Shown here piece after piece: positions 1 to 25,397 of a stretch of 31,942 nt of DNA. The notes beneath the pieces are model-generated. The model saw nothing but the letters and a program-made list of their open reading frames with translations, ran no database searches and had not been told where the DNA came from. Every line of letters begins with the position of its first letter. Position 1 is the stretch's first letter. The stretch is from a virus. Location of the stretch: the IMG/VR virus record IMGVR_UViG_3300037468_000435, positions 1 through 31,942 of that record; one strand, written 5' to 3'. A program made the translations under genes and the position numbers.

Positions 1-5
1 GCAAC

Positions 6-245
6 ATGCCAAAATATACACAAGAAATAAAGGATAAGGCTTTGCAAATGGCAGAGTCAGGAGTCTCTTTAAAAGAGATTCAGAGACAACTTGGACCTAA
101 CCCTAAGGCGGTTCAAAGATACTTCAAGAAAGCAGGTAAAGACTACCAAGCTTTCGTATTGAAGCAGAAAGCAATTAAGGAAGCGCAGAAAGCAAAAGAA
201 GCGCCAGTTAAGAAAGCTGAAGCTCCAAAAGTATCAAAGAAGTAA
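6..245 (+). CDS. Small helix-turn-helix DNA-binding protein with basic tail
   Basis: 79 residues. Residues 3-45 look like a homeodomain-like helix-turn-helix of the transposase/recombinase type: a first helix (QEIKDKALQMAESG), then VSLKEIQRQLG and a recognition-like helix NPKAVQRYFKKAG. The C-terminal third is a Lys/Ala/Glu-rich tail of the sort seen on small nucleic-acid-binding proteins. A role as regulator or DNA-binding accessory protein is inferred from this fold alone. The start lies only 5 bases into the window, so its ribosome site cannot be judged and a longer N terminus is possible. A hairpin terminator follows directly, so it ends its own transcription unit. Confidence 0.7.
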   Translation: MPKYTQEIKDKALQMAESGVSLKEIQRQLGPNPKAVQRYFKKAGKDYQAFVLKQKAIKEAQKAKEAPVKKAEAPKVSKK

Positions 246-254
246 TTTGCTTCG

Positions 255-283
255 GGGATAGCAATATCCCTTTTCTTTTTTTT
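255..283 (+). terminator. Hairpin plus T-tract terminator
   Basis: A 6-bp stem GGGATA/TATCCC is closed by a GCAA (GNRA-type) tetraloop and followed by a tract of T with a single C. It lies 9 nt after the stop codon at 245 and separates the helix-turn-helix gene from the next unit. Confidence 0.7.
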
Positions 284-318
284 ATTCATAATCATATAAT
301 ATAATCGGAGGAAACGAA

Positions 319-504
319 ATGAGTAATACGTCAAAGAAAGCGAAAGAAGATTACATCAAAGCTTGGCAGAATTATATCGGAGAGATATATGGCTTGGCTT
401 TTTGTAGTGATATTCCTTTATCACAGGAAATACGTGGACATATCGAAGCTTTAAAAGCTTTAGTCCCAAAAGTCGCAGAGACTAAAACATCGTGGGGTAA
501 ATAA
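319..504 (+). CDS. Hypothetical small protein
   Basis: 61 residues, no recognised family. The sequence is mostly helical and amphipathic, with one Cys (FCSDIPLS). The start is well placed: GGAGG at 307-311 followed by ACGAA before the ATG. The next gene starts one base after its stop, so the three genes at 319-944 appear to form one operon. Function unknown. Confidence 0.6.
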   Translation: MSNTSKKAKEDYIKAWQNYIGEIYGLAFCSDIPLSQEIRGHIEALKALVPKVAETKTSWGK

Positions 505-505
505 A

Positions 506-748
506 ATGGGAAACGGAAAATATGACGAAGATGGGTTATGCGTAGATTGTGGAGAACAACATCCCTGCAATTGCGAAATAAATAACTTGAACGATGAGAA
601 TGGCAACAAAGAAACGTATATTGGACTATGTCCTAAATGCGAAGAATTACAACGATACTGGAAAGATAAGAAATGCGATTGCGGATATGTATTCGTTTTT
701 AATGAAGATGATTTCCAAGAAGTTGACAAGGAGGCGGGCAATGAATAA
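506..748 (+). CDS. Small double zinc-ribbon-like protein
   Basis: 80 residues with eight cysteines in two similar sets: C12-x2-C15 with C21-x-C23, and C42-x2-C45 with C57-x-C59. This spacing suggests two zinc-binding knuckles. The second half (LCPKCEELQRYW...KKCDCGYVF) is the more ribbon-like. Such proteins often bind nucleic acid or protein partners, but no specific function can be named. The C terminus is acidic. Its last codons contain the Shine-Dalgarno site and overlap the start of the next gene (ATGAATAA overlap), which indicates translational coupling. Confidence 0.65.
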   Translation: MGNGKYDEDGLCVDCGEQHPCNCEINNLNDENGNKETYIGLCPKCEELQRYWKDKKCDCGYVFVFNEDDFQEVDKEAGNE

Positions 749-944
749 ACCGCAAGACAACGAGATATTCGTCGAAGACAGTGAGTCTAATGAGGACGAA
801 TATATAGATATCGAAACAAAGAGACAAATGGACATTCTCCAAAAGGAGATAGAGTCAGTTCGATGGGATATAGAATACCACGAGAAAAAGCTACGAGCCG
901 CAGAAGACAGATTAAGTATCTTGTCTAAAGTCAGGTTCGAATAG
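741..944 (+). CDS. Small acidic coiled-coil protein
   Basis: 67 residues. The N-terminal 25 residues are strongly acidic (EDSESNEDEYID). Residues 28-66 form a predicted coiled coil (MDILQKEIESVRWDIEYHEKKLRAAEDRL). The reading frame is open further upstream, but the ATG at 741 has a good ribosome site (AAGGAGG at 728-734) and gives the usual short overlap with the preceding gene, so that start was chosen. No family recognised. Last gene of the 319-944 unit. Confidence 0.6.
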   Translation: MNKPQDNEIFVEDSESNEDEYIDIETKRQMDILQKEIESVRWDIEYHEKKLRAAEDRLSILSKVRFE

Positions 945-962
945 ATTAATTAATTTTCATAA

Positions 963-1058
963 AAACCCGGTATGGCGCTATTGGTTTACGGGTTTCCTTT
1001 GAAAGGTCATAGGTAGGGGACCTACTCTTATGCTAGCAGTAAGCAACAAATCCCTACC
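963..1058 (+). other. Structured leader/terminator RNA with alternative folds
   Basis: Follows the 319-944 unit. First hairpin: AAACCCG (963-969) with CGGGTTT (989-995). After it come two mutually exclusive folds: TAGGT (1010-1014) with ACCTA (1020-1024), or GGTAGGG (1012-1018) with CCCTACC (1052-1058). The second closes a 33-nt loop holding a small CTTA/TAAG stem. A T-rich tract follows. It could be a terminator or a switch-like RNA; no known riboswitch family is recognised. Confidence 0.45.
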
Positions 1059-1170
1059 ACTATTTCTTTCGTTTCTTATAATTTATTCTTCTTTTGTTAT
1101 ATCGGTTTGTATCGGTTTGTTCTCTTTGTACAACAAAAACTAACGTTTGTATCATGTGTCAATTTGAACA

Positions 1171-1196
1171 AAGTGAATCAAAGTGATATCAAGTGA
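1171..1196. repeat. Three AAGTGA boxes at exact 10-bp spacing
   Basis: AAGTGA occurs at 1171, 1181 and 1191, each about one helical turn from the next, so all three would face the same side of DNA. This arrangement is typical of a protein-binding array (iterons or operator). Confidence 0.55.
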
Positions 1197-1589
1197 GGAT
1201 TGGAAGAGTGTTTTTGTTGTAAATATTGTAAATATTGATATCACTGAATACTACAATACTTATCAGAAACGCAGTTTCCATACTTTAATTTTATATATCC
1301 TCGTGAGTTAATCTTACGTATTTCGATGGACATTCCTGTTCTAAACGCATTACTCACATTCCTGTGTATCCCTTGTGTTTCATATATAAAACTAGGGGAT
1401 TGTCTCCACTACTCAGCGCGAGTGAGAGATCGCATTCTATCACATTCGAGTGATTACTATAGTTATTATATTATTATTTATTATTTTTAAAAATATCAAT
1501 AAATACAATAATAACAATATTGTATCCCTTGTAAATATTGATACAAAATAAAATATAATAAAAATATATAAAATATTTTTCCCGGTTCT

Positions 1590-1628
1590 TTCTTTAGACG
1601 TACGTTATCAGTTCTTTAGACGTACGTT
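1590..1628. repeat. 17-bp direct repeat containing ACGTACGT
   Basis: TTCTTTAGACGTACGTT is present at 1590-1606 and 1612-1628, a 22-bp period (two helical turns). The right half is palindromic (ACGTACGT). Likely a paired binding site. Confidence 0.6.
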
Positions 1629-1669
1629 TGGCTTTCTTATATGCGGACGAAGTCGATCGTAACAATACC

Positions 1670-1790
1670 GCTACATCGTTCGGGAGGTAGGTAGTTAATG
1701 CTTGATGGATGTGGCTACATCGATCGCTGACGGAGGCGTGCCAAGTAAAGTATATACATCGTAGTAATATTTATATATTAGATAGTATTA
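1670..1790 (+). promoter_or_regulatory. Early composite promoter 1 (two upstream elements plus TATA)
   Basis: Upstream element GCTACATCG[T/A]TCG is present at 1670 and 1714, 44 bp apart. TCGTAGTAATATTTATATA begins at 1759, 45 bp after the second copy, and carries the TATA-like core. The start codon of the downstream gene is at 1832, about 65 bp past the TATA core. The same two-part layout occurs at 2492 and 3117. Confidence 0.6.
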
Positions 1791-1831
1791 TCTATATTAT
1801 TAGATAAATAAAATCTAATGGAGTAATTAAA

Positions 1832-2089
1832 ATGGAGACGAAAGATAAATACGATATATATAGAGAAGTCGTTAAAAGAGTATTAGATAATCTATACGAT
1901 CTTGGAAGCGATTATTTAGAATTAGTATTCGATACCAACGAATGCGTTATAGATGGAGAATGCGATGGAGTTACATTCAAAGCGAGAATTCAATACGCAG
2001 ATAATAAGATTATCTATACCACTTCAGAATCAGACGATGTAGACGAATATACCATCGAAGATTTCGAAGTAACGTTTGGAGATAATTAA
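1832..2089 (+). CDS. Hypothetical acidic early protein
   Basis: 85 residues, strongly acidic, no recognised family. The predicted fold is an N-terminal helix (residues 5-22) followed by a run of beta strands (LELVFDTNECVIDGECDGVTFKARIQYADNKIIYTT) and an acidic C-terminal part. Ribosome site GGAG at 1820-1823 is 8 nt from the ATG. It is the first gene of an early unit with composite promoter 1. About half of its cytosines lie in CG dinucleotides, unlike the structural genes. Acidic early viral proteins can act as DNA mimics or inhibitors, but nothing specific supports that here. Confidence 0.6.
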   Translation: METKDKYDIYREVVKRVLDNLYDLGSDYLELVFDTNECVIDGECDGVTFKARIQYADNKIIYTTSESDDVDEYTIEDFEVTFGDN

Positions 2090-2090
2090 A

Positions 2091-2384
2091 ATGGAGAACG
2101 AAGAATATAATCGAATAGTAGAAGACTTACACCCTCAAGACTGTGAATGCGATGAATGCGAAGAACGTATGTTCGAAGAAGATCATAACGCATTAGTAGA
2201 AGAATTATCTGAAGCATTCGATAGAGATATCGAACAAACAGTTGAACCATACAAAAGCATTCATATAAAGAATCGAGATATGATAATCAAAATAGCAGCG
2301 TTGGTTCATCGAGAAGGAGTAACGAAGTTACCAGCCAATTTTCTTTTCACAATCATAAATACAATGTTAATCGAAAAGAAATAA
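2091..2384 (+). CDS. Hypothetical acidic early protein with Cys cluster
   Basis: 97 residues from the ATG at 2091, which has GGAG 9 nt upstream; an in-frame ATG at 2076 lacks a ribosome site. The N-terminal half is acidic and carries a C-x-C-x2-C cluster (CECDECEE, about residues 18-25) that could bind a metal. The C-terminal half (IIKIAALVHREGVTKLPANFLFTIINTML) looks like two helices. Directly downstream of the 1832 gene in the same unit; a 12-bp stem-loop terminator follows 15 nt after the stop. No family recognised. Confidence 0.6.
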   Translation: MENEEYNRIVEDLHPQDCECDECEERMFEEDHNALVEELSEAFDRDIEQTVEPYKSIHIKNRDMIIKIAALVHREGVTKLPANFLFTIINTMLIEKK

Positions 2385-2399
2385 GAACTAATCATATTC

Positions 2400-2463
2400 A
2401 TAGACTAACTGGACTCCATAACGTATCTCCATACGTTTTACTCATTCAGTTAGTCTATCTTTT
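2400..2463 (+). terminator. Nested stem-loop terminator of early unit 1
   Basis: Outer stem of 12 perfect base pairs (ATAGACTAACTG at 2400-2411 with its complement at 2447-2458). Inner hairpin AACGTAT/ATACGTT (2420-2426 with 2431-2437) is closed by CTCC. A short T-rich tail follows. The same design recurs at 3863-3928. Confidence 0.6.
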
Positions 2464-2469
2464 CCTGTG

Positions 2470-2560
2470 CTTCGGTGACTGGACCGAAGTTGCTACATCG
2501 TTCGGGCCTAAAGCAATAATCGATATACCTTATCGTAGTAATATTTAAATAGTAGATATA
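2470..2560 (+). promoter_or_regulatory. Early composite promoter 2
   Basis: A 7-bp hairpin CTTCGGT/ACCGAAG (2470-2489) is followed at once by the upstream element GCTACATCGTTCGGG (2492-2506). TCGTAGTAATATTTAAATAG begins at 2533, 41 bp from the element start, and contains the TATA-like core. The downstream start codon is at 2603, about 60 bp from the core. Confidence 0.6.
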
Positions 2561-2602
2561 GTTTATTATATTGAGATAAAAAGAATCTCGGAGATGAGTA
2601 AA

Positions 2603-3088
2603 ATGAGTAAAACGAAATTAAATGGAGAAAAGATAGAATTCGATTGGGGATCTTGCCAATACGACACAGCAGCTGAAATCTATCATCAGCTTCTAGACAA
2701 ACAATTAGACGAAACAAAATTCGTAGAAAGTAAGAAGATCGAACCAGATCTAGACGCATTAAGAAAAGAATTTATAGATAATGCGAAAGCTATTCTAGAC
2801 GACGACGAAGAAGAATTAAAAAAAGAATTAATTCGCATTAGTAAAGCAACAACGCCAGAAGACTTCTTCAATATCGCAAGAGAACTAGCTTGGGATCTAT
2901 GGTCAGCGATATTTATAGCAGACTATTTCATAGACTACGATATTCGAGAAGAATTAGAATTAGAAACTTTCGGGCCAATCTTAAACAGACTAGCTCAAGG
3001 AGAAAACTTCAGAGTAGCAGTCTTAGCTTACTTACTAACAAAGTACTACGAGACAGACGAAGAAGCTTTCAAACACTTCGATACGTAA
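2603..3088 (+). CDS. Hypothetical acidic helical early protein
   Basis: 161 residues from the ATG at 2603. That start has GGAG with 9-nt spacing, whereas the in-frame ATG at 2594 directly abuts the GGAG and is unlikely. The protein is almost all helix and very acidic (LDDDEEELKKELIRI, YDIREELELETFG). No enzymatic motif or known family was seen. Sole gene of early unit 2. A T-rich tract follows the stop. Confidence 0.6.
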   Translation: MSKTKLNGEKIEFDWGSCQYDTAAEIYHQLLDKQLDETKFVESKKIEPDLDALRKEFIDNAKAILDDDEEELKKELIRISKATTPEDFFNIARELAWDLWSAIFIADYFIDYDIREELELETFGPILNRLAQGENFRVAVLAYLLTKYYETDEEAFKHFDT

Positions 3089-3116
3089 ATTAATTTTTTT
3101 TTCGTTCAAACTTACC

Positions 3117-3180
3117 GCTACATCGTTCGGAGGTTTGTAAAATTCTCATCGGTCGTAGAAATATTTAAATAGTAGATAGT
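3117..3180 (+). promoter_or_regulatory. Early composite promoter 3
   Basis: Upstream element GCTACATCGTTCGGAGG at 3117-3133. TCGTAGAAATATTTAAATAG begins at 3153, 36 bp later, with the TATA-like core near 3161. The downstream start codon is at 3221, about 60 bp away, as in the other two early units. Confidence 0.6.
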
Positions 3181-3220
3181 ATTTTTAGTATTGAGATATT
3201 AAATATATGGAGTTGAGAAA

Positions 3221-3352
3221 ATGAGTATAAGTAGAAAAGATATAGAGAGAAATAAGAGAGTTTTAGAAGAAGTGAAAAGAGATATAAAAGAGAGAGATGG
3301 ATTTTTAAGTAGTGAGATAAGAGATGAAGAAGGAGATGAAATAAATGAGTAA
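3221..3352 (+). CDS. Tiny charged early protein, cytosine-free gene
   Basis: 43 residues (MSISRKDIERNK...), helical and highly charged, no family recognised. Ribosome site GGAG is 8 nt before the ATG. The reading frame contains no cytosine, so the protein lacks Ala, Pro, Thr, His and Gln. It lies in a 209-nt C-free stretch (3155-3363). Its stop overlaps the start of the next gene by 8 nt. Support for expression: composite promoter 3, good ribosome site and overlap with the following gene. Confidence 0.55.
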   Translation: MSISRKDIERNKRVLEEVKRDIKERDGFLSSEIRDEEGDEINE

Positions 3353-3533
3353 AGAGATAAAAGCGATAGATAAAGATGGATTTTCGATGAGTCAGACAGA
3401 AATTCTAAAAGCCATCGATAAAGAATATGGAGAAGATTACGGAGATCTTTTCTATAGTCTAACCAAGAAAGATTACAAAGACGTTCGTAGAATATTACGA
3501 TATTTAGAAAAGAGAAAGGAGACGAGAAAATGA
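3345..3533 (+). CDS. Hypothetical small basic early protein
   Basis: 62 residues. Residues 14-35 (SMSQTEILKAIDKEYGEDYGDLF) and 41-58 (KDYKDVRRILRYLEKRK) are predicted helices; the second is basic. This might be a small DNA-binding or adaptor protein, but no family is recognised. Ribosome site GGAG in the preceding gene. Overlaps both neighbours (start inside the previous gene, ATGA overlap with the next), so the three genes at 3221-3739 should be translationally coupled. Confidence 0.55.
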   Translation: MSKEIKAIDKDGFSMSQTEILKAIDKEYGEDYGDLFYSLTKKDYKDVRRILRYLEKRKETRK

Positions 3534-3739
3534 GAAAAGAAATCGAAGAAATATTCAAAGTAATACTTGAGAATAATCAGATAGATGACAGACGAGAATA
3601 CGATCTAGAAGATTTAAAGAAAGCTTACAACATAACAGACAGAGACGCAGCAGATTTATTCGAAGCTATATTAGACGCGAGCGAGTTATCTGAGAATGAG
3701 TTCCAACAATTACTTAAGACTTACAACGTAACATACTAA
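3530..3739 (+). CDS. Hypothetical small acidic early protein
   Basis: 69 residues, all-helical prediction (EEIFKVILENN, LEDLKKAYN, RDAADLFEAILDASELSENEFQQLLKTYN). No known family. Its start overlaps the previous stop (ATGA), with an AAGGAG ribosome site just upstream. Last gene of early unit 3. The charge is opposite to that of the preceding protein, so the two might interact; this is speculation. Confidence 0.55.
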   Translation: MRKEIEEIFKVILENNQIDDRREYDLEDLKKAYNITDRDAADLFEAILDASELSENEFQQLLKTYNVTY

Positions 3740-3809
3740 CGCATTCGCATTCGTAGAATAGTAAAAGCAAATTCGCATTCCTAGAAAACGAGAAAGCAAA
3801 AACGCATTC
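3740..3809. repeat. Four CGCATTC heptamers
   Basis: CGCATTC occurs at 3740, 3746, 3774 and 3803 in the first 70 bases of the 499-nt spacer after the 3530 gene. A fifth copy lies near 1434 in the other long spacer. The spacing is irregular, which suggests separate protein sites rather than a tandem expansion. Confidence 0.45.
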
Positions 3810-3862
3810 TTATTTTCAAAGGCCGTTCATATTTAGCAGTAGCGTTATTACATATCATATTC

Positions 3863-3942
3863 AAAGACTAGCGAGTATCCATATACTTTATCTCAAAAGT
3901 AATCTTCATACTCAGCTCGCTAGTCTTTTTCTTTTATTTTTC
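3863..3942 (+). terminator. Nested stem-loop terminator of early unit 3
   Basis: Outer stem of 13 perfect base pairs (AAAGACTAGCGAG at 3863-3875 with its complement at 3916-3928), followed by a T-rich run. The loop can form AGTAT/ATACT and ACTTT/AAAGT hairpins. An alternative GAGTAT/ATACTC pairing would disrupt the outer stem. Design and stem core (AGACTA/TAGTCT) resemble the element at 2400-2458. Confidence 0.6.
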
Positions 3943-4040
3943 TTTTTAATCGTTCGTTCTATCGAGCGCACTTTCCAAACATCGCCACATCAATCGAGCG
4001 TACAAAGTCGATCGTTTTTAAAATCGCGCGAGTATAGTTA

Positions 4041-4090
4041 TTAGTATAGTAGTATAGATATTAGTATAGTAGTATAGATATTAGTATATT
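4041..4090. repeat. TTAGTATAG-type tandem repeat
   Basis: A 20-bp unit TTAGTATAGTAGTATAGATA is present twice head to tail (4041-4060, 4061-4080) and starts a third, diverging copy. More TAGTATA words occur at 4131-4158 and 4741-4835. Together they fill both flanks of the cytosine-free gene. Confidence 0.7.
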
Positions 4091-4098
4091 AAAAATAG

Positions 4099-4158
4099 AA
4101 AGATTTATAAAGAGAGAAAGAGAGTATAAATAGTATATTAGTATAGTATTTTAGTATT
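4099..4158. repeat. Left flanking direct repeat of cytosine-free gene
   Basis: Begins AAAGATTTATAAAG, continues with purine-rich GAGAAA sequence and ends TAGTATATTAGTATAGTATT. The same order recurs at 4719-4770. The TTTATAAA core resembles an archaeal TATA box. Confidence 0.55.
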
Positions 4159-4238
4159 GAGAAAAGAAAAGATTTATATATAAAAGAGTATTTTTAAGAG
4201 AGAAATATATAAAAAAAATATATTTTGGAGTAAAAAAA

Positions 4239-4598
4239 ATGGAGAAAAAAAATAAAGAAATGGAGAAAGAAAATAAAATAAATATGGAGATAGTAAGAAG
4301 AAAAGATTATATATTTTTAGTAAATTTTTTTAATGAGATAAAAAATTTAGATTTAGAAAAAGATAGTAATAAAAAAATAGTAAAAGATTTATATTTTAAA
4401 TTTAGTGAGAATAAATTTAGTAATATAAAAAGAGTAATAAATAGAAGTTTGAGAAAAGAAATAAAAGAAAATTTATTAAATGAGTTAAAAGAAAATAATA
4501 TGAGTATAGAAGAATATATGAGTATTGGAGAAAAATTAAAAATAATGAGTAAAAAAAATAAAAGTAATAATTTTAATTTAGTAAAAATAGAAAATTAA
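4239..4598 (+). CDS. Cytosine-free gene, small basic helical protein
   Basis: 119 residues, Lys/Asn/Glu/Ile-rich, no known family. The coding strand has no cytosine, so the protein contains no Ala, Pro, Thr, His or Gln, and no Cys or Trp either. The gene still looks real. It has a ribosome site (GGAG at 4227-4230 before ATG 4239) and TATA-like sequence (GATTTATATATAAAAG) about 65 bp upstream, and a long A/T hairpin terminator sits on its stop codon. Predicted helices include YIFLVNFFNEIKNLDLEK and NIKRVINRSLRKEIKENLL. Because the whole surrounding 813 nt lack C, the composition reflects the DNA region and not only the protein. Function unknown. Confidence 0.55.
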   Translation: MEKKNKEMEKENKINMEIVRRKDYIFLVNFFNEIKNLDLEKDSNKKIVKDLYFKFSENKFSNIKRVINRSLRKEIKENLLNELKENNMSIEEYMSIGEKLKIMSKKNKSNNFNLVKIEN

Positions 4599-4625
4599 TT
4601 TAAGATTTAAATTAATTTTTTAGAA
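4591..4625 (+). terminator. A/T-only hairpin terminator
   Basis: A 13-bp perfect stem (4591-4603 with 4607-4619) with a GAT loop spans the stop codon of the cytosine-free gene and runs into a T-rich tail. Confidence 0.65.
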
Positions 4626-4997
4626 ATTTTTTATTTTTTTTTTTTAGATTTTTAAAATATTTTTGTGAGAAATTTTTTAGATTAAAAAAAAATTAGAAAA
4701 TAATTTTTTTAAAAAAGAAAAGATTTATAAAGGAGAGAAATAGTATATTAGTATAGTATTTAGTATATTTTTAGTATAGTAAATAGTATAGTAGTATAGA
4801 AAGTTAGAGAATAGTATAGTAATTAGTATATTGAGTTATAGTCAGCCCGCTACAAGTATATTACGTGCGCGAGAAAATATTAGGCACGTTTCGATTCTTA
4901 ATTATAGAAAAATTCCCACGCTCTGGCGTAGGTATTTCTCCGTATATCTTATAGATATAAAGGAAAAATATAAATATATCTAAATATAATATATATT
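4599..4997. other. Spacer before packaging genes
   Basis: 399 nt without a gene. Up to 4842 it is cytosine-free and holds the terminator, T-rich and A-rich runs, the right-hand flanking repeat and TAGTATA words. From 4843 composition returns to normal. Inverted repeat ACGTGC/GCACGT (4863-4868 with 4884-4889) and small hairpin ACGC-TCTG-GCGT (near 4918-4929) precede the promoter of the next gene. Confidence 0.5.
4719..4770. repeat. Right flanking direct repeat of cytosine-free gene
   Basis: Matches 4099-4158 in order: AAAGATTTATAAAG, GAGAGAAA, then TAGTATATTAGTATAGTATT, with an internal deletion of about 9 nt relative to the left copy. Confidence 0.55.
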
Positions 4998-4998
4998 A
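4964..4998 (+). promoter_or_regulatory. Archaeal promoter of the small terminase candidate
   Basis: GAAAAATATAAATATATC carries a TATA box centred near 4971. About 26-27 bp downstream lies the ATG at 4998, so the transcript should start at or next to the start codon (leaderless). The sequence is a relaxed version of the late promoters at 7750, 14905 and 19743. Confidence 0.65.
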
Positions 4999-5774
4999 TG
5001 GTTATGAATTTAAAACAAGATCGCAGTATAACAAAACAAGCAAGGTTCGACATTGATTTGAAAGAGCCCGAGATGACAAAGGACTTGAATGTTACTAGAA
5101 TTAACCAGGCTGTCATTGAAATTACCAAGAAAAATCGCTATGAAATCATGCGTTGTGTGAACTGCCCTATACTCTTGGAATGCTCATATCCCAAAAGAAG
5201 GTTGGAAAAGCTTAGAATTTCAGCAAAGGAAATCTCAGAAAAGATATATAGTGAAGAGATAGAACTCGACAATACTGCAGAGAACATTCTAAGGGCCCAG
5301 AACAAACGTGATCAAGTCTTCAACGGCTACATTCGAGACAATGCTTACCAAGAGTTAAAGAACGACCGCTGTATTTATGAAAGAGAGGAAATCATTAATG
5401 CACTTCAAAGGTTCGTAGATAGCGGCTATGACATCTCCAACCCTCGAGTTTATTTAGTCGTACAGGAATTGATAGGCAATATTCTCAATTCAGGACGTGC
5501 AAACAAAGCATTCACAAATTTGGGGCTAATTCTCAAGAAAGACACACCAGCAGGCCCTATTTATTATAAGAACCCTCTAATTGAAAGTAAAATAGAGTTC
5601 TCAAGATTAATAATCGAAGCAACTGAAGCTTTGGATAGAATGCTTAAATCAGACGAGAAGTCTGTATTGGCTAACAACTTTACGGATCATTTACTCAAAC
5701 AACTTAAGATAAGAGAAAAAGAGCATCATAAAGTTACGATAATAGATATAGAGTCTGAGGAAGACAATAAATAG
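4998..5774 (+). CDS. terS: Candidate terminase small subunit
   Basis: 258 residues. Position directly before the large terminase subunit and a helical P27-like middle part (NPRVYLVVQELIGNILNSG... GPIYYKNPLIESKIEFSRLI) suggest the DNA-recognition subunit of the packaging motor. This is a resemblance by eye, not a proven family match. The N-terminal third carries C53-x2-C56-x5-C62, and C125 lies further on; together these could bind zinc or an iron-sulfur cluster, which is unusual for small terminases. The start at 4998 fits a leaderless transcript from the promoter 27 bp upstream. The C terminus is acidic. The tRNA gene starts 2 nt after its stop, so both are probably on one transcript. Confidence 0.55.
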   Translation: MVMNLKQDRSITKQARFDIDLKEPEMTKDLNVTRINQAVIEITKKNRYEIMRCVNCPILLECSYPKRRLEKLRISAKEISEKIYSEEIELDNTAENILRAQNKRDQVFNGYIRDNAYQELKNDRCIYEREEIINALQRFVDSGYDISNPRVYLVVQELIGNILNSGRANKAFTNLGLILKKDTPAGPIYYKNPLIESKIEFSRLIIEATEALDRMLKSDEKSVLANNFTDHLLKQLKIREKEHHKVTIIDIESEEDNK

Positions 5775-5776
5775 GA

Positions 5777-5849
5777 GGGCGAATAAGCTAACCTGGTAGA
5801 CTACCCGGTTTGCAACCGAGTTATATGGGTTCAAATCCCATTTCGTCCA
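5777..5849 (+). tRNA. tRNA-Ala (anticodon UGC)
   Basis: The cloverleaf can be drawn by eye. Acceptor stem GGGCGAA/TTCGTCC has the G3-U70 wobble that marks alanine tRNAs; discriminator is A73. T8, A14, G18-G19 and A21 are present. The anticodon stem-loop CCCGG-TTTGCAA-CCGAG reads UGC. T arm is ATGGG-TTCAAAT-CCCAT. There is a C-A mismatch in the D stem and another in the anticodon stem, so it is somewhat degenerate. No 3' CCA is encoded. No promoter of its own is visible; it lies 2 nt after the preceding stop codon. Confidence 0.85.
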
Positions 5850-6054: not shown

Positions 6055-6141
6055 ATGGAAGAAACAATCTCTTATATTAACATTACGAAGGAGATAGATT
6101 ATATCTTCGATAGATATGGTAAAATAATAGAGAATTTATAA
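6055..6141 (+). CDS. Possible 28-codon leader ORF before large terminase
   Basis: Starts MEETISYINITKEIDYIF and ends with a TAATG overlap onto the large terminase start. No ribosome site lies before its ATG. The same frame is open back to 5932 without a standard start, so it may be the tail of a longer or decayed product. The stop/start overlap suggests it could couple translation of the terminase. Weakly supported. Confidence 0.3.
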   Translation: MEETISYINITKEIDYIFDRYGKIIENL

Positions 6142-7724
6142 TGGAAGAATTTGTAGATGGATGGGTAAAAAGTGCACAAGAAGCCGAAGAGCTTCTGAAA
6201 AGGTTTGAAAGCGATCCTGTTGCTTTTATTGAACTATTCATAGAAAGGGAACTCTCACCCAAACAAAGAGACTTTATCAATTCTACTAAAACTCATAAAC
6301 ACGTAGTTGCAATTTGGAGCAGACAGACGGGCAAGTCAACAGTCATTGCTTCGTACATTGTATGGAGACTTCTTTACGGCACGGGATGTATCATCAATGG
6401 AGAACATATGCCAGAACACATAGCCGTCGTAGCTCCTATTAAAGAACAGCACAATATGATTTATGGTAAGATACGTTCTTTGATTGAGAAGAATGAACAC
6501 ATCTTTGGGTTCATTGAAAAGATGAACTCGGAAGAAATTCGTATGAAGAATGGAAATGAAGCGAAGTTTATGTCTGCAAGTCCTGGAGCTCATATTAGAG
6601 GATATACAGCCACTTGCATCGTTATAGATGAGTCTCAAGATGTAATAGACGACAAATACTCAGCCGACATTATGCCATTTGGTTCTACAACTAACGCACT
6701 GGTAATTGAAGCTGGAACTCCGAAGACAAAGAATCATTTCTTTGCCACTACAACGGATCGCTCGGGAAAAATCAAGGTAGTTCGACAGCCTTGGTTCGAA
6801 TGTCCTTTCATTAGTAAAGAATACGTAATGGGCCAAAAGGCCATAAGCCCAGACGCACTATGGCGGCAAGAATACTTATGCGAGTTCATAGAGGAAGGAG
6901 TTTTGGTTTTCCCAAGTAGGCTGTTTGAGCCTGAAGAGAAGGCAGGAAAACTTACTGGTAGATGGAATTTAGCAGATTATTCTTATATCGATAAGCCCGA
7001 AAAATTAACGAAAGAAAAAATGATTATGATTAATGCCTCATTCAATGATGGCGCCCAATATGCAGCTGGATTGGACCTCGGTAGACAGAACGACCAAACA
7101 GTTTATACTATATATAGGGTGGATACTCGTCCGATTAAGATAGAAGTTATGCTTGATTTTCCTTTAGATACGAACTATAAGGTAATTGCGGCCACGATCT
7201 CGAACTTCCATAAGGTGTATCAGCCGTCCGAATTCAATATAGACTACACCAACGAAAAGAGTTTCATCGAGATGCTACAGGAAAACAACATTCCTGTAGT
7301 CGTGGACCCAAAAATGACCCGTGGAGCTATCCAATTTACCTCTAAAAACAAGTCTGAGATGGTAAATACGGTCAAAATATTGCTCGAAAACTTCCAATTA
7401 TGTGTTCCAAGGAATGCAGAACAGCTTATTTCACAGTTCTTAAATCAGCAATTCGAGATGTCAGAGCAAGGAAAATACAAGTTTTTTCATCCCTCAAATG
7501 AGCACGATGATGCTTTATGGAGCACTTTGCTTGCTTTAAAGAACGTTACACTGCTTACTGCTATGGATATTATCACCTGGAAGAATCCTTGGGAACATTT
7601 TGATGACAAAGTGCATGGTGAAAATAGGAAAACAGCAGGAGAAGTGCTTGCTACGAACCAAAGATTTGCACGTGAAAGACGAGAATATGTTCCTGCAGAA
7701 CAAAGACGTAGTGCAAGGTTTTGA
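6141..7724 (+). CDS. terL: Terminase large subunit (packaging ATPase and nuclease)
   Basis: 527 residues, usual length for the family. It powers DNA translocation into the prohead and cuts the concatemer. The N-terminal ATPase has a Walker A motif SRQTGKST (residues 60-67), Walker B CIVIDE (159-164) with the catalytic Glu, and a likely coupling motif EAGTPKTKN (190-198). The C-terminal RNase H-like nuclease has the acidic residues expected: D312 in YAAGLDLG, D368 in NIDYT and the HDDA pair near 455-458. A basic C-terminal tail (RRSARF) follows. The start overlaps the stop of the short frame upstream. Works with the candidate small subunit at 4998 and the portal at 7788. Confidence 0.95.
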   Translation: MEEFVDGWVKSAQEAEELLKRFESDPVAFIELFIERELSPKQRDFINSTKTHKHVVAIWSRQTGKSTVIASYIVWRLLYGTGCIINGEHMPEHIAVVAPIKEQHNMIYGKIRSLIEKNEHIFGFIEKMNSEEIRMKNGNEAKFMSASPGAHIRGYTATCIVIDESQDVIDDKYSADIMPFGSTTNALVIEAGTPKTKNHFFATTTDRSGKIKVVRQPWFECPFISKEYVMGQKAISPDALWRQEYLCEFIEEGVLVFPSRLFEPEEKAGKLTGRWNLADYSYIDKPEKLTKEKMIMINASFNDGAQYAAGLDLGRQNDQTVYTIYRVDTRPIKIEVMLDFPLDTNYKVIAATISNFHKVYQPSEFNIDYTNEKSFIEMLQENNIPVVVDPKMTRGAIQFTSKNKSEMVNTVKILLENFQLCVPRNAEQLISQFLNQQFEMSEQGKYKFFHPSNEHDDALWSTLLALKNVTLLTAMDIITWKNPWEHFDDKVHGENRKTAGEVLATNQRFARERREYVPAEQRRSARF

Positions 7725-7774: not shown

Positions 7775-7787
7775 GTTAATGTATATT

Positions 7788-9938
7788 ATGGCAAATAATA
7801 CTTCTGATGATAATAAAATACTTCTAGCAGGAGCTGATGGGAAATCAGATTTAGATAATGGCTTTGGTTCTTTTTCTTCAAATGATGAATTGAAAAAATA
7901 TCAGACTATCATCGACGATGCTAAGAGGGAAAGATCGATGAACAAAGACTTCGTTAAAGATATGGAAAAAGTCTACGAAGAATTTAAAAATAAAGGTGTA
8001 TTTAATGAGGATGGTTCTTTTAATGAAAACCGTGCAATGGTCAAGGGAAACGTAAGAGATTTAAAATCTTGGTCAAATGCAAATCCATCTCTTATTCTTG
8101 AAGTTGCTGATAATGCAAAAGTAAGGCTATGGGAAAGAAAAAACAAATATGAAGACGCTGGAGAAAACTTCGTTGTGAAGGAAAAAGTTGAGACAGCAGA
8201 AGATGATAGGGTTTTAGGTATTCCTTATGCACAGGCTATGGCAGGAGACAGAGTATTTATAATAAACGGGAAAATATTCACAGGTTGGGCCTTATATTTC
8301 TCGCTTTCATCAATTAAATCACCCGAAGACTATGCAAGAAATGTTGACTTGGTTTACAACGTACCTTATCTATTCGCAAGCATTCAGCTTAAAGCTCAAT
8401 TAGGTCTTGGTTGTGGTTTCGATGTTAATTATGGAGCTGAATCTGATGAAACTGCAGAAGAAAAGCTCACTAAGAAATTCTTATTTGACAAACTCAAGAT
8501 TAATACACAAAAATTAGTAAAGACTGGCTTCCATTTATTCTCATACGGGAACTCGTACTGGGCCATCAGGAGGGATGCTAACGGTAATCCTGATAAAATA
8601 ACAATTCTACAGCCAGAAAGGCTCAAGATATTCTTGGACCCAATGACTACAAGGATTATGTTCTATATCTATCTTCCCCCGATCATAGGTGGAACAACCA
8701 TAGCATCCTATCCTTCTGATGGGAAAGTTAATCCTAACATCCTCACCGGGATGACCTTGAGCTATCCTACACCCATAGTGATGCATCCCGAGGATGTTTT
8801 ACATTTTAAGATAAACGACTTTACAGAGTATCCATTCGGTTTCTCTGATGTAAAGACTTGTCTTGACCCAGCAACAGCAAGACTTGATGTAAATATCTTA
8901 GCTCCTATTATCTTTAAGAAGTATTCGAAACCTATGGTACATTGGGCTTTGAATACAGAAGGTATGGGACCTAAACAAGTTGAAGATAAAAAGACTGAAA
9001 TGGTTAATATGTTAGAGAATATGGAACCAGGTTCAGACCCTGTAACTACTGATAGGTGGAAACCTACTATAATTTCTGTGACGGACAAAGGGCAGGCTAT
9101 GTTCAATCTTACCGGAGATATGGACACACAGATTTTCGCTGCTACGGGTGCCCCCGAGACTTACTTCAAGTCTAAAGGTTCAACTGATAGAATGATTTCA
9201 GAACAAGATAAGACATTCTTGTCTCGATTGAAAATCCCTCAAGAGATCGTAGCAGACCAAATTGAGGAAAAACTAATCAAGCCAAGGATATACTATGAAT
9301 TGTGCAAAAAACAGGCTGCCAAGAAGTTGCTCGGCGAGGCCGACCAATTAGATGACTTCCTTAAATCTTTCGATAGCTGGATGGCATCTGAACCAAAGAT
9401 ACCAAAAGTGAAATGGAAAGAGATATTCAAACAAGATGAAACACAATTAATTGCAAATACAGTTGTTCTACTCAATAATGGAATAATTGATAAGAACAGA
9501 GCTGCAGCAAAATTAGGAATTATAACACCATCTGACCAGGGTAAACAAGATTTATATAAAACCGGAATAGATGACCCAATCTCTCACGAAGCTAAGATAA
9601 ATGAAGATATCGCTAAAGCTCAGCAAGAACAAAAAGTAAGAGATGAATCAGGAAAAGATAACAATCCTAATATGCAAAATCAAATGCAGCAATTAAGAGG
9701 ACAAGCTGTTGTAACTGGCCAGAAGGATCAATCTTCAAGAAACATAAATGATGTGAAAGACCCATCACAATTAGGAGGGTCTAGATATGCACAACACGAA
9801 ACACACGGTAAGCAAGGAGATTTATCACAGAAGTCAAGTGGATTAAAAGCTAAACCACCAGAAACAGCAGATAATGCAATCAAAGTAGGTTCAAAGATAG
9901 ATGTCGTTGACGGAGTAATAATCAAATATGATAACTAA
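7788..9938 (+). CDS. Portal protein
   Basis: 716 residues from the ATG at 7788. The in-frame ATG at 7779 is too close to the TATA box to be transcribed as a start. It forms the dodecameric ring at the capsid vertex through which DNA enters and to which the terminase and connectors bind. Characteristic portal sequence includes LVYNVPYLFASIQLKA, KITILQPERLKIFLDP, HPEDVLHFKIND and FGFSDVKTCLDPATARLDV, followed by the long helical clip/stem part. The last 130 residues are Gln/Lys-rich and low in complexity (QEQKVRDESGKDNNPNMQNQ), probably a disordered tail; this makes it longer than many portals. Start of the first late module. Confidence 0.92.
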   Translation: MANNTSDDNKILLAGADGKSDLDNGFGSFSSNDELKKYQTIIDDAKRERSMNKDFVKDMEKVYEEFKNKGVFNEDGSFNENRAMVKGNVRDLKSWSNANPSLILEVADNAKVRLWERKNKYEDAGENFVVKEKVETAEDDRVLGIPYAQAMAGDRVFIINGKIFTGWALYFSLSSIKSPEDYARNVDLVYNVPYLFASIQLKAQLGLGCGFDVNYGAESDETAEEKLTKKFLFDKLKINTQKLVKTGFHLFSYGNSYWAIRRDANGNPDKITILQPERLKIFLDPMTTRIMFYIYLPPIIGGTTIASYPSDGKVNPNILTGMTLSYPTPIVMHPEDVLHFKINDFTEYPFGFSDVKTCLDPATARLDVNILAPIIFKKYSKPMVHWALNTEGMGPKQVEDKKTEMVNMLENMEPGSDPVTTDRWKPTIISVTDKGQAMFNLTGDMDTQIFAATGAPETYFKSKGSTDRMISEQDKTFLSRLKIPQEIVADQIEEKLIKPRIYYELCKKQAAKKLLGEADQLDDFLKSFDSWMASEPKIPKVKWKEIFKQDETQLIANTVVLLNNGIIDKNRAAAKLGIITPSDQGKQDLYKTGIDDPISHEAKINEDIAKAQQEQKVRDESGKDNNPNMQNQMQQLRGQAVVTGQKDQSSRNINDVKDPSQLGGSRYAQHETHGKQGDLSQKSSGLKAKPPETADNAIKVGSKIDVVDGVIIKYDN

Positions 9939-16925: not shown

Positions 16926-17801
16926 ATGGCACAACCAGCATCAAGCGCATCAACATGGGCACTGTTCAAAGAACAGGTTGACGACACTATAATTAAGGCC
17001 TTACAACCAAAGATAATCTATCCTTTGCTTGCAAAGACATATCCAGCTAACGGAGCTGTTGTAGAATACAACACAACTGACAGTTGGTTATCTCCAGAGG
17101 TAGAATCTGAAGGTGGCGAGTATCCATCAGGAATACTACAGTTCACCAGAAACTTCGCAACAATCAAAGACCTCGGTATTGCACCAAGAATTCCAATGAA
17201 TTGGATCAAAGATGCAAGATGGGATCTTGTCAACGATCATGTTGAACAGATTGGTTTCGGTATCGCAAGATACATAAACAGTGATTTCTTGACTGCACTG
17301 AACATATTCGTAGCAGGTGGAACTTACGCAGGACAGACATACAGCGGTCCAGCAGGACACGTAACTACAGCAACAGCACTTTGGTCAGCAGTGGGTGCAG
17401 ATATTATAAAAGATATCTCGGACGCACTTGCAGTACTTGAAGGCGACGATGCAGGAGATGGAAGAAAATTCCTTGTTCTACACCCAAGCGCATTTAAGTT
17501 CTTAAGAATTGAACCAAATCTATTGAAATACTTGAACTACGGAAATGCTGAGCTAATACAGAAAGGTATTTACCCAACTCCATTTGGTGTTGACATCTTG
17601 GTCACAAGCCAGGCAGCAACAACTTACGGACTATTGGTAAACGTCGATCTAGCTGCAATAAGGTACTACGAAAGAGAACCTTTGACTATAGAGATTGAAA
17701 AGGCTGCAAGGTCTAAACACATCGATATAGTTGCCTACATCAGGTATGCAATAGCTTGCGCAAGACCAAAAGGACTTGTAAAGATAAACACAATAGCTTA
17801 A
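16926..17801 (+). CDS. Major capsid protein, HK97 fold
   Basis: 291 residues. Position after protease and decoration protein, length, and sequence pattern match HK97-fold capsid proteins without a large propeptide. A short N-terminal arm leads to an E-loop-like part (WLSPEVESEGGEYPSG), a spine helix (DHVEQIGFGIARYINSDFL), the P-domain (GRKFLVLHPSAFKFLRIEPN) and the A-domain with conserved end (YGLLVNVDLAAIRYYEREPLTIE ... IVAYIRYAIACARPKG, cited in parts). Ribosome site AGGTGA. Codon choice is more biased than in neighbours, as expected for the most abundant protein. A T-rich terminator follows. Confidence 0.92.
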   Translation: MAQPASSASTWALFKEQVDDTIIKALQPKIIYPLLAKTYPANGAVVEYNTTDSWLSPEVESEGGEYPSGILQFTRNFATIKDLGIAPRIPMNWIKDARWDLVNDHVEQIGFGIARYINSDFLTALNIFVAGGTYAGQTYSGPAGHVTTATALWSAVGADIIKDISDALAVLEGDDAGDGRKFLVLHPSAFKFLRIEPNLLKYLNYGNAELIQKGIYPTPFGVDILVTSQAATTYGLLVNVDLAAIRYYEREPLTIEIEKAARSKHIDIVAYIRYAIACARPKGLVKINTIA

Positions 17802-24041: not shown

Positions 24042-25397
24042 ATGGTCGCACCCGCACTTGGAGCATTGATAATGAGAGGTGGAGCAGCTATGGCTGGCAG
24101 TAAATCAGCTAGTTCAGCTGCAGGCTCAATTTTAGGTTCAGGTGGAAAAGCAGGATTGGATAAATTAATGAGTATAAATGTCTCTATGGATAAAGTCTGG
24201 AAGACAGTTAAAAAGATATACGAAAAACTATCAGAAGTTTCACCTATGTTGAAACAAACAAATGAGATATTCAAAAAAGCTTGGAATGTGACTTTAAGAC
24301 CTTTCGGAGATTTCATAGGTAAATTCCTCAGACCTTTAGCTGTATGGTATTTGAAAATAGCAGTTAAATGGTATCAGTGGCTATCAGGTGTTCTTGGTAC
24401 AGGTGGAGGAGAGAATGATACTAGAACAGGAAAAGATGATTTAATTAAGCAAAAAGAAGCAGAGAAAATAGGAGCTGAAATGCGAGGAGATACTGTTGGT
24501 ATGGCTACAGCTGATGCAGAAATCAAAGAATTGAAAAAGACTTGGTGGGATTCTATTACTAAATTTTTCACAGAGACTTTGCCAGAAGTTGCAACTAATG
24601 CATGGAATGGGATTGTTACTTTCTTTACAACTACATTACCTGAAGCTGCAGCAACTGCTTGGGCTTTTGTAACTGTATTTTTTACAGAGACTTTACCTAA
24701 ATTTTTTACTGAAGATTTACCTTATGCTTTAGGACAATTTGCAGCAACTGTGGTGAAATTTTTTACTGAAACAATACCAAAAGCAGCAGAAGATACTTGG
24801 AATGCTATTGTAACATTCTTTACTGAAACTTTACCCAAAGTAGCACAAGATGTATGGGATTCAATTGTTAAATTCTTTACTGAAACTTTACCCAAAGTAG
24901 CACAAGATGTATGGGATTCAATTGTTAAATTCTTTACTGAAACATTACCAACGACTTTACAAGCAGGATGGGATGCTGTAAAAAGGTTTTTCACCGAAAC
25001 TATTCCTGGATGGTTTAATACGATGATACAAAAATTCAAAGATATATGGAATGACATTAAAGGTATATGGGATAAAGTAAAAAATATAGGCGGAAAAATA
25101 GTTGATAATGTTGTTGCAGGATTCAAAGGTGAAGAAAAAATAACTGGTCCACCCCCTAAAAAAGCTGTAGGTGGTCCTGTTAGAGAAACAGGTTTATATA
25201 ATCTTCACGCCGGAGAAAGGATAATGACTGCAGGAGAAACTGCAAGAGCTAAAGGAAAAGGAGCAGGTAGTCAATCTTTTAATAATTATATCAATATAAC
25301 AGCTAATCTATCCAATGATATGGATGTAAAATCATTAGCAAGAAAATTAGCTGAATATCAAGAAACAGAATTAAGAAGGAGAGTTTCATATCTATAA
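24042..25397 (+). CDS. Tape measure protein with 19-residue repeats
   Basis: 451 residues from the ATG at 24042 (GGAGGAGG just upstream; an earlier in-frame ATG at 24012 lacks a site). It sets tail length and may act in DNA entry. The N terminus is Ala/Gly-rich and hydrophobic, then helices. At about residues 180-320 a 19-residue unit of the form FFTETLPKVAQDVWDSIVK occurs seven to eight times. The C terminus has a Gly-rich tail with LHAGERIMTAGE, common in tape measures. It is short; at the usual 1.5 angstrom per residue it would specify a tail of roughly 65-70 nm. Confidence 0.85.
   Translation: MVAPALGALIMRGGAAMAGSKSASSAAGSILGSGGKAGLDKLMSINVSMDKVWKTVKKIYEKLSEVSPMLKQTNEIFKKAWNVTLRPFGDFIGKFLRPLAVWYLKIAVKWYQWLSGVLGTGGGENDTRTGKDDLIKQKEAEKIGAEMRGDTVGMATADAEIKELKKTWWDSITKFFTETLPEVATNAWNGIVTFFTTTLPEAAATAWAFVTVFFTETLPKFFTEDLPYALGQFAATVVKFFTETIPKAAEDTWNAIVTFFTETLPKVAQDVWDSIVKFFTETLPKVAQDVWDSIVKFFTETLPTTLQAGWDAVKRFFTETIPGWFNTMIQKFKDIWNDIKGIWDKVKNIGGKIVDNVVAGFKGEEKITGPPPKKAVGGPVRETGLYNLHAGERIMTAGETARAKGKGAGSQSFNNYINITANLSNDMDVKSLARKLAEYQETELRRRVSYL
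24816..24942 (+). repeat. 57-bp exact tandem repeat in tape measure gene
   Basis: The unit starting TTCTTTACTGAAACTTTACC is present at 24816-24872 and 24873-24929 with no visible differences, then begins a third time at 24930 and diverges after about 13 nt. Each unit encodes 19 residues. Nucleotide identity implies recent duplication. Confidence 0.8.

Follow-up and report, generated by a model that had tools for sequence, protein, structure and literature searches.

The linear 31,942-base IMG/VR virus record IMGVR_UViG_3300037468_000435 (positions 1 to 31,942, the whole of the stretch analysed and called the window below) carries a gene-bearing island of 813 nt whose + strand contains no cytosine. 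A clade of tailed viruses maintains this island in its genomes. Virtually no sense-strand position within it is occupied by C, whereas G is kept, and the exclusion of C has outlasted the sequence of the protein encoded there. The explanation that we favour, tentatively and as something short of probable, is a "C-proof" transcription unit, one that could be expressed when cytidine cannot enter or survive in RNA.

Small early-type genes occupy positions 1-4029 of the window, packaging and structural genes run from 4998 onward, and all features of interest lie on the + strand. The virus is assigned to the tailed viruses (Caudoviricetes) by the similarity of its predicted terminase large subunit, portal and HK97-type capsid genes, which occur in that order. 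With regard to an archaeal affiliation, promoters in the window are of the TATA type, and the terminase matches Halogranum and Halorubrum viruses, yet also Thermus, Meiothermus and Synechococcus phages; an ATP-dependent DNA ligase is encoded in the contig of one relative (L005, below). Neither a provirus nor a host was found in the genome collections searched. The features of the window are as follows.

3155-3363, +: second C-free stretch, with promoter, leader and 43-codon gene (counterpart at 7500-7665 of L005)
3221-3352, +: C-free open reading frame (ORF) of 43 aa
4030-4842, +: C-free island, 0 C in 813 nt (base counts)
4031-4088, +: left flank, with TATAG motifs in tandem repeats of 20 nt (repeat search, TATAG positions)
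4104-4111, +: TATA-like box AAAATAGAAAGATTTATAAAG (sequence, promoter scan)
4173-4184, +: putative second TATA-like element TTTATATATAAA (sequence)
4227-4230, +: GGAG, ribosome-binding-like motif (sequence)
4239-4598, +: C-free ORF of 119 aa, helical, with a homologue in L005 (38% identity; ORF and homology searches)
4588-4622, +: A/T-only inverted repeat at the ORF end, leading into T-runs, terminator-like (folding z -4.2)
4611-4655, +: T-rich tract, candidate oligo-T terminator of archaeal type (sequence)
4724-4731, +: further TATA-like box, in the right flank of the island (sequence, promoter scan)
4739-4842, +: right flank, with TATAG repeats (6 present, 1.9 expected) and the potential for AU/GU hairpins as RNA
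4843-4854, +: C cluster of the right border, CAGCCCGCTACA (6 C in 12 nt)
4998-5774, +: CxNCP-motif gene, downstream neighbour of the island, perhaps the small terminase subunit (51-56% identity to relatives)
6141-7724, +: terminase large subunit (phrog_2, E 1.4e-30)
7779-9938, +: portal (PF04860, E 8.6e-10, slightly below the curated cut-off)
16926-17801, +: HK97-type capsid (PF25209, E 1.3e-12)

Extent and anatomy of the C-free units

The island is composed of 409 A (50%), 282 T (35%), 122 G (15%) and no C, is bounded by C at 4029 and 4843, and is flanked by DNA with 14-16% C. Other long C-free runs in the window measure 209 nt (3155-3363) and then 66 nt. Among 300 genomes simulated by a third-order Markov model of the rest of the window, the longest C-free run has a mean of 51.6 nt and a maximum of 77 nt, and the longest such runs in the comparison viruses are 84 nt in SIRV2 (a rudivirus of 25% GC), 76 nt in crAss001 and 37 nt in T4; chance or AT-richness as the origin of the island is rejected by these simulations and these other AT-rich viruses. 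The original prediction of an 813-nt + strand island with about 15% G and no C is exact (0 of 813), and the 119-codon gene that it placed there, whose product lacks Ala, Pro, Thr, His and Gln, is present at 4239-4598, with Cys and Trp absent as well. C exclusion covers coding and non-coding parts alike and is strand-specific; as had been argued, it is the nucleic acid that is constrained rather than the protein.

The repeats and TATA-like element expected inside the island were found, the former on both flanks and the latter more than once. The promoter at 4104-4111 has AAATAG as its upstream element where the other early promoters have TCGTAG at the same place, indicating that even the promoter's C has been replaced, and the island has six GG dinucleotides, each of them part of a GGAG. 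A hairpin terminator had also been predicted; the inverted repeat at 4588-4622 is indeed there, and is terminator-like. Archaea terminate transcription at oligo-dT (PMC2253867). The predicted sharpness of the borders holds too, and each of the four viruses in which the right border is seen has a C cluster there (CAGCCCGC in the window, CCCTGCCC in L005, CCCAGCCC in L004 and CCAACCGTCC in L008); comparable C clusters occur elsewhere in these genomes at 2-4% of C positions.

The second C-free run (3155-3363) lies in the same early block, and the probability of such a 209-nt run by chance at one place is about 1e-14 (at 14.3% C). Its counterpart in L005 is a small unit of 166 nt that starts at the promoter (7500) and meets its first C (7666) right behind the T-run, so there the C-free zone coincides with the transcription unit. 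The C-free stretches are the sense strand and include promoter, ribosome-binding motif, ORF and T-run; with no C on the sense strand from promoter to terminator, they have the make-up that natural C-less transcription units would have.

Conservation of C exclusion among relatives

Two relatives were found through the terminase and three more through the portal. L005, whose terminase is 62% identical, has a 726-nt run with 0 C at 7976-8701 in addition to the 166 nt at 7500-7665. The L008 island is 897 nt with 1 C, that is, 787 C-free nt from the contig end, one C and 109 further C-free nt, and the L004 contig starts within the island and has 81 C-free nt up to the same right border. In L005 and L008, which come from other metagenomes and have terminases about 60% identical, the island lies directly upstream of the packaging genes, and the CxNCP-motif gene at 4998-5774 is a syntenic anchor. 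The L011 contig is cut within the gene that follows the island and does not show the island region. In the most distant relative, L009 (49% identical across the aligned portal), C-free runs reach 45 nt at most and there is no island. Normal C content at the same place in relatives would have spoken against the original prediction; those relatives that have the region are C-free there too, and the presence of the same island in independent relatives makes it a feature of one clade rather than of one assembly.

The three known islands (window, L005 and L008) together contain a single C in 2,436 nt, with an upper bound of about 0.2% against 15% in the surroundings. Island G is 15% in the window, 21% in L005 and 19% in L008 and tracks each genome, which argues that C alone is selected against; near-zero C with G retained means that every C is selected against or removed, on the + strand only. 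The 119-aa protein is 38% identical to its L005 counterpart, with an alignment score above all 2,000 shuffles. Its similarity to the 139-aa L008 protein is marginal (34 of 2,000 shuffles score as well), and the latter is not similar to the L005 protein (623 of 2,000). Base composition is therefore better conserved than the gene. The flank repeat units are about 20 nt in the window and mostly 14-16 nt in L004, L005 and L008; TATAG is common to all of them, and is enriched in most island flanks and not in the coding parts. One base excluded over 700-900 bp while the sequence diverged implies that single cytosines are selected against individually.

We know of no described case of natural one-strand exclusion of a base over 700-900 bp, and a limited literature search for cytosine-free regions in viruses found none of this kind. 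Telomeric and other strand-asymmetric repeats also have one strand that is C-free, which in their case is simple and G-rich, whereas the island is mostly unique, gene-bearing and G-poor. The island points to an unrecognised C-directed process in infection, be it the poisoning of CTP, a C-specific decay of RNA or a process specific to one DNA strand.

Explanations for C exclusion

The strand rule, the occurrence of whole promoter-gene-terminator units at two places and the cost attached to each C are together best fitted by a constraint on the RNA or the template strand. Under the favoured explanation, every single sense-strand C (a C in the RNA, or a G in the template) would carry a cost, because expression of the unit would be needed while incorporation of cytidine into RNA, or its persistence there, fails. 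Such conditions could arise through depletion of CTP, through a cytidine chain terminator such as viperin-made ddhCTP, or through a C-specific ribonuclease that either host or virus supplies. The 119-aa protein, which is short, basic and helical, might in that case have an early regulatory or counter-defence role, perhaps exerted on the TATAG repeats that surround its gene, and the stretch at 3155-3363 with its small C-free gene would be another such unit. In favour of this, viruses with terminases about 60% identical have, at one corresponding place, 0 C in 813 and in 726 nt and 1 C in 897 nt. Against it, the C-free zone exceeds the apparent unit at both ends, by about 70-155 nt ahead of the TATA box and by about 85-200 nt past the T-run, so that longer transcripts or a DNA-level cause are needed, and early genes generally keep normal C at third codon positions (19-23% outside the C-free units), so that avoiding C is not a general property of early transcripts. 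The original prediction had included a transcription or replication process needing a G-less template strand, which is a possible cause and lies near the explanation favoured here.

Several known systems bear on this explanation, although any link between them and the window virus is hypothetical. In vitro, archaeal RNA polymerase without CTP runs on a C-less template to the first C (PMC10899632). Cassettes of this type, which serve for in-vitro transcription by archaeal and other RNA polymerases, resemble the island in having a C-less sense strand downstream of a TATA promoter, with the first C stalling the polymerase when CTP is withheld, and differ in being man-made and tens of nt long (58 in that study), while the island is natural, 700-900 nt long, conserved, and contains a gene and repeats. 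Viperins occur in archaea, the viperin product is a chain terminator, and Asgard archaeal viperins, in which the ddh-synthase site is conserved, are anti-phage when expressed in bacteria (PMC11291487). Such a cytidine-directed attack on viral RNA synthesis is one that a C-free transcript could escape. Nucleotide depletion is likewise a known anti-phage defence, with dCTP and dGTP cases (PMC12409349). It is possible, if doubtful, that this virus has natural three-letter genes, whole units without cytosine that are expressible if CTP is absent or poisoned or if C-containing RNA is destroyed; if true, these would represent sequence-level counter-defence against nucleotide-directed immunity.

A somewhat unlikely alternative is a replication or packaging element whose + strand is exposed as ssDNA (an origin, a persistent gap, an R-loop or a pac-like region by the terminase). 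A C-specific single-strand enzyme would then attack exposed C, or C would allow unwanted priming, with the TATAG repeats as binding sites and the right-border C cluster as a stop or start signal. The exclusion of C from flanks that do not look transcribed, with repeats on both sides, would fit such an element, as would the ends of the L004 and L008 contigs inside the island and the excess of C over G to the right of the border (20:9 in L004, 43:29 in L005 and 75:29 in L008). It is the C-free reach beyond the unit and the fixed place beside the packaging genes that keep a DNA-level reading alive. It leaves unexplained, however, the other C-free gene, which in the window as well as in L005 lies 700 nt upstream and has a promoter of its own; the island has no replication gene, and the window border shows no flip in C/G skew (25:23).

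The island gene might instead encode a C-specific nuclease or toxin to which its own gene is immune, which we consider unlikely. There is precedent for such self-exemption in that ACA-less mRNAs are spared by MazF, again a gene without the sequence that makes RNA vulnerable; the island differs in lacking a whole base, also outside the apparent transcript, and the RNase here is hypothetical. Function searches of the 119-aa protein (Pfam, PHROGs, NCBIfam, PADLOC and PDB sequences) gave nothing convincing and no match above cut-off. The window protein has a weak, sub-threshold profile similarity to T4 RegB (Pfam E 0.053; PHROG endoribonuclease E 0.14), and the context of early genes with GGAG motifs is also reminiscent of RegB. 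This similarity is not significant (PF10715, 14 bits against a cut-off of 27) and does not recur for the proteins of L005 and L008. The L008 protein is perhaps not a homologue at all, and the remainder of the viral genome contains C. Two AlphaFold models, with a pLDDT of 55, are too weak for a fold search. Searches for homologues of the island gene alone found only L005, and L005 was also the only match in a search of viral contigs with the promoter + D pattern.

We regard as quite improbable a targeted strand-specific cytosine deaminase that drove C to T on the non-template strand. It would account for a strand-specific effect on coding and non-coding DNA alike, and was one of the causes first proposed. 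However, T occupies only 8 of 45 Val and Gly third positions (fourfold sites), where about 21 are expected if lost C became T (P ~3e-5) and about 13 if C was merely excluded; lost C was not replaced by T as in a deaminase-hypermutated region, and A rises along with T in the island. A gene of the dCMP deaminase family in the L005 and L009 contigs would be in keeping with this cause, but none was seen in the window or the L008 contig; the matches are nucleotide (dCMP-type) enzymes, and L009 has the enzyme without the island. A further proposed cause, avoidance of cytosine-targeting restriction or modification of duplex DNA, is untenable because minus-strand C (equal to plus-strand G) stays at 15-21%.

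It is very improbable that the absence of C is historical, through copying of a promoter-leader module that lacked C by accident and from whose leader the genes grew. Early leaders of both viruses (window and L005) are C-poor or C-free for 52-75 nt and resemble copies of one another, but at 38% protein identity and with differing repeat units a neutral relic would have regained about 15% C, against less than 0.2% observed, and conservation across diverged relatives contradicts it. Highly improbable, too, is a three-letter composition that keeps RNA or ssDNA unstructured. Although G-C pairs are impossible within a C-free strand, A-U and G-U pairs let the island RNA fold far better than shuffled versions of it (z -7, a value probably inflated by the A-rich coding part facing the T-rich tail). 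Its folding energy over 813 nt is near that of the upstream control (-119 against -145 kcal/mol), the hairpins of the window flanks have z of -4.3 and -3.5, and there would be no need to remove every single C. An assembly, sequencing or bisulfite artefact is next to impossible, since, even though the DNA is AT-rich and of low complexity and two contigs end in the island, the island recurs at the corresponding place in independent metagenomes, where its sequence has diverged and a homologous ORF is intact, which refutes it, and bisulfite would convert C on both strands while the other strand keeps its C.

Additional features of the early block and the island locus

The early block (1750-4029 in the window and 6130-7975 in L005) has dinucleotide frequencies opposite to those of the late genes. 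CG is at 1.74 and 1.56, respectively (0.55 and 0.76 in late genes), GG is at 0.45 and 0.48, CC is low, and TG is low in the window; NNY codons of these blocks end in C mostly if the next base is G. Stem-loops after early genes at 3863-3928 and about 2400-2460 of the window have the same outer shape with different but complementary stems (AAAGACTAGCGAG/CTCGCTAGTCTTT and ATAGACTAACTG/CAGTTAGTCTAT), and may be a covarying terminator or RNA element. The motif GCTACATCGTTCGG is repeated at about 1668, 2491 and 3117 of the window, shortly upstream of early promoters.

Tiny second ORFs are present within the islands of L005 (8526-8591, MKDEELVFLIDDLFIFNLFKK, 21 aa), where it overlaps the stop of the main island gene, and of L008 (656-736, MVFDNVDFLIDIIDYDFIFYMFEYRK, 26 aa), and both contain FLID. 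Immediately to the right of the L008 island, 892-1146 is made up of C-rich, G-poor tandem repeats of the CTTACACGACTTTACACTAAGAAAATCC type, so that the composition switches at this border from C-free to G-poor. Genes of the dCMP/cytidine deaminase family are located in two of the relatives, at 14734-15216 of L012 (the contig of L005) and at 11097-11546 of L015. A tRNA-Ala (TGC) gene that was not found at the relatives' loci lies at 5777-5849 of the window, between the CxNCP-motif gene and the terminase gene, and a tape-measure-like gene contains a 57-bp tandem repeat at 24756-24949.
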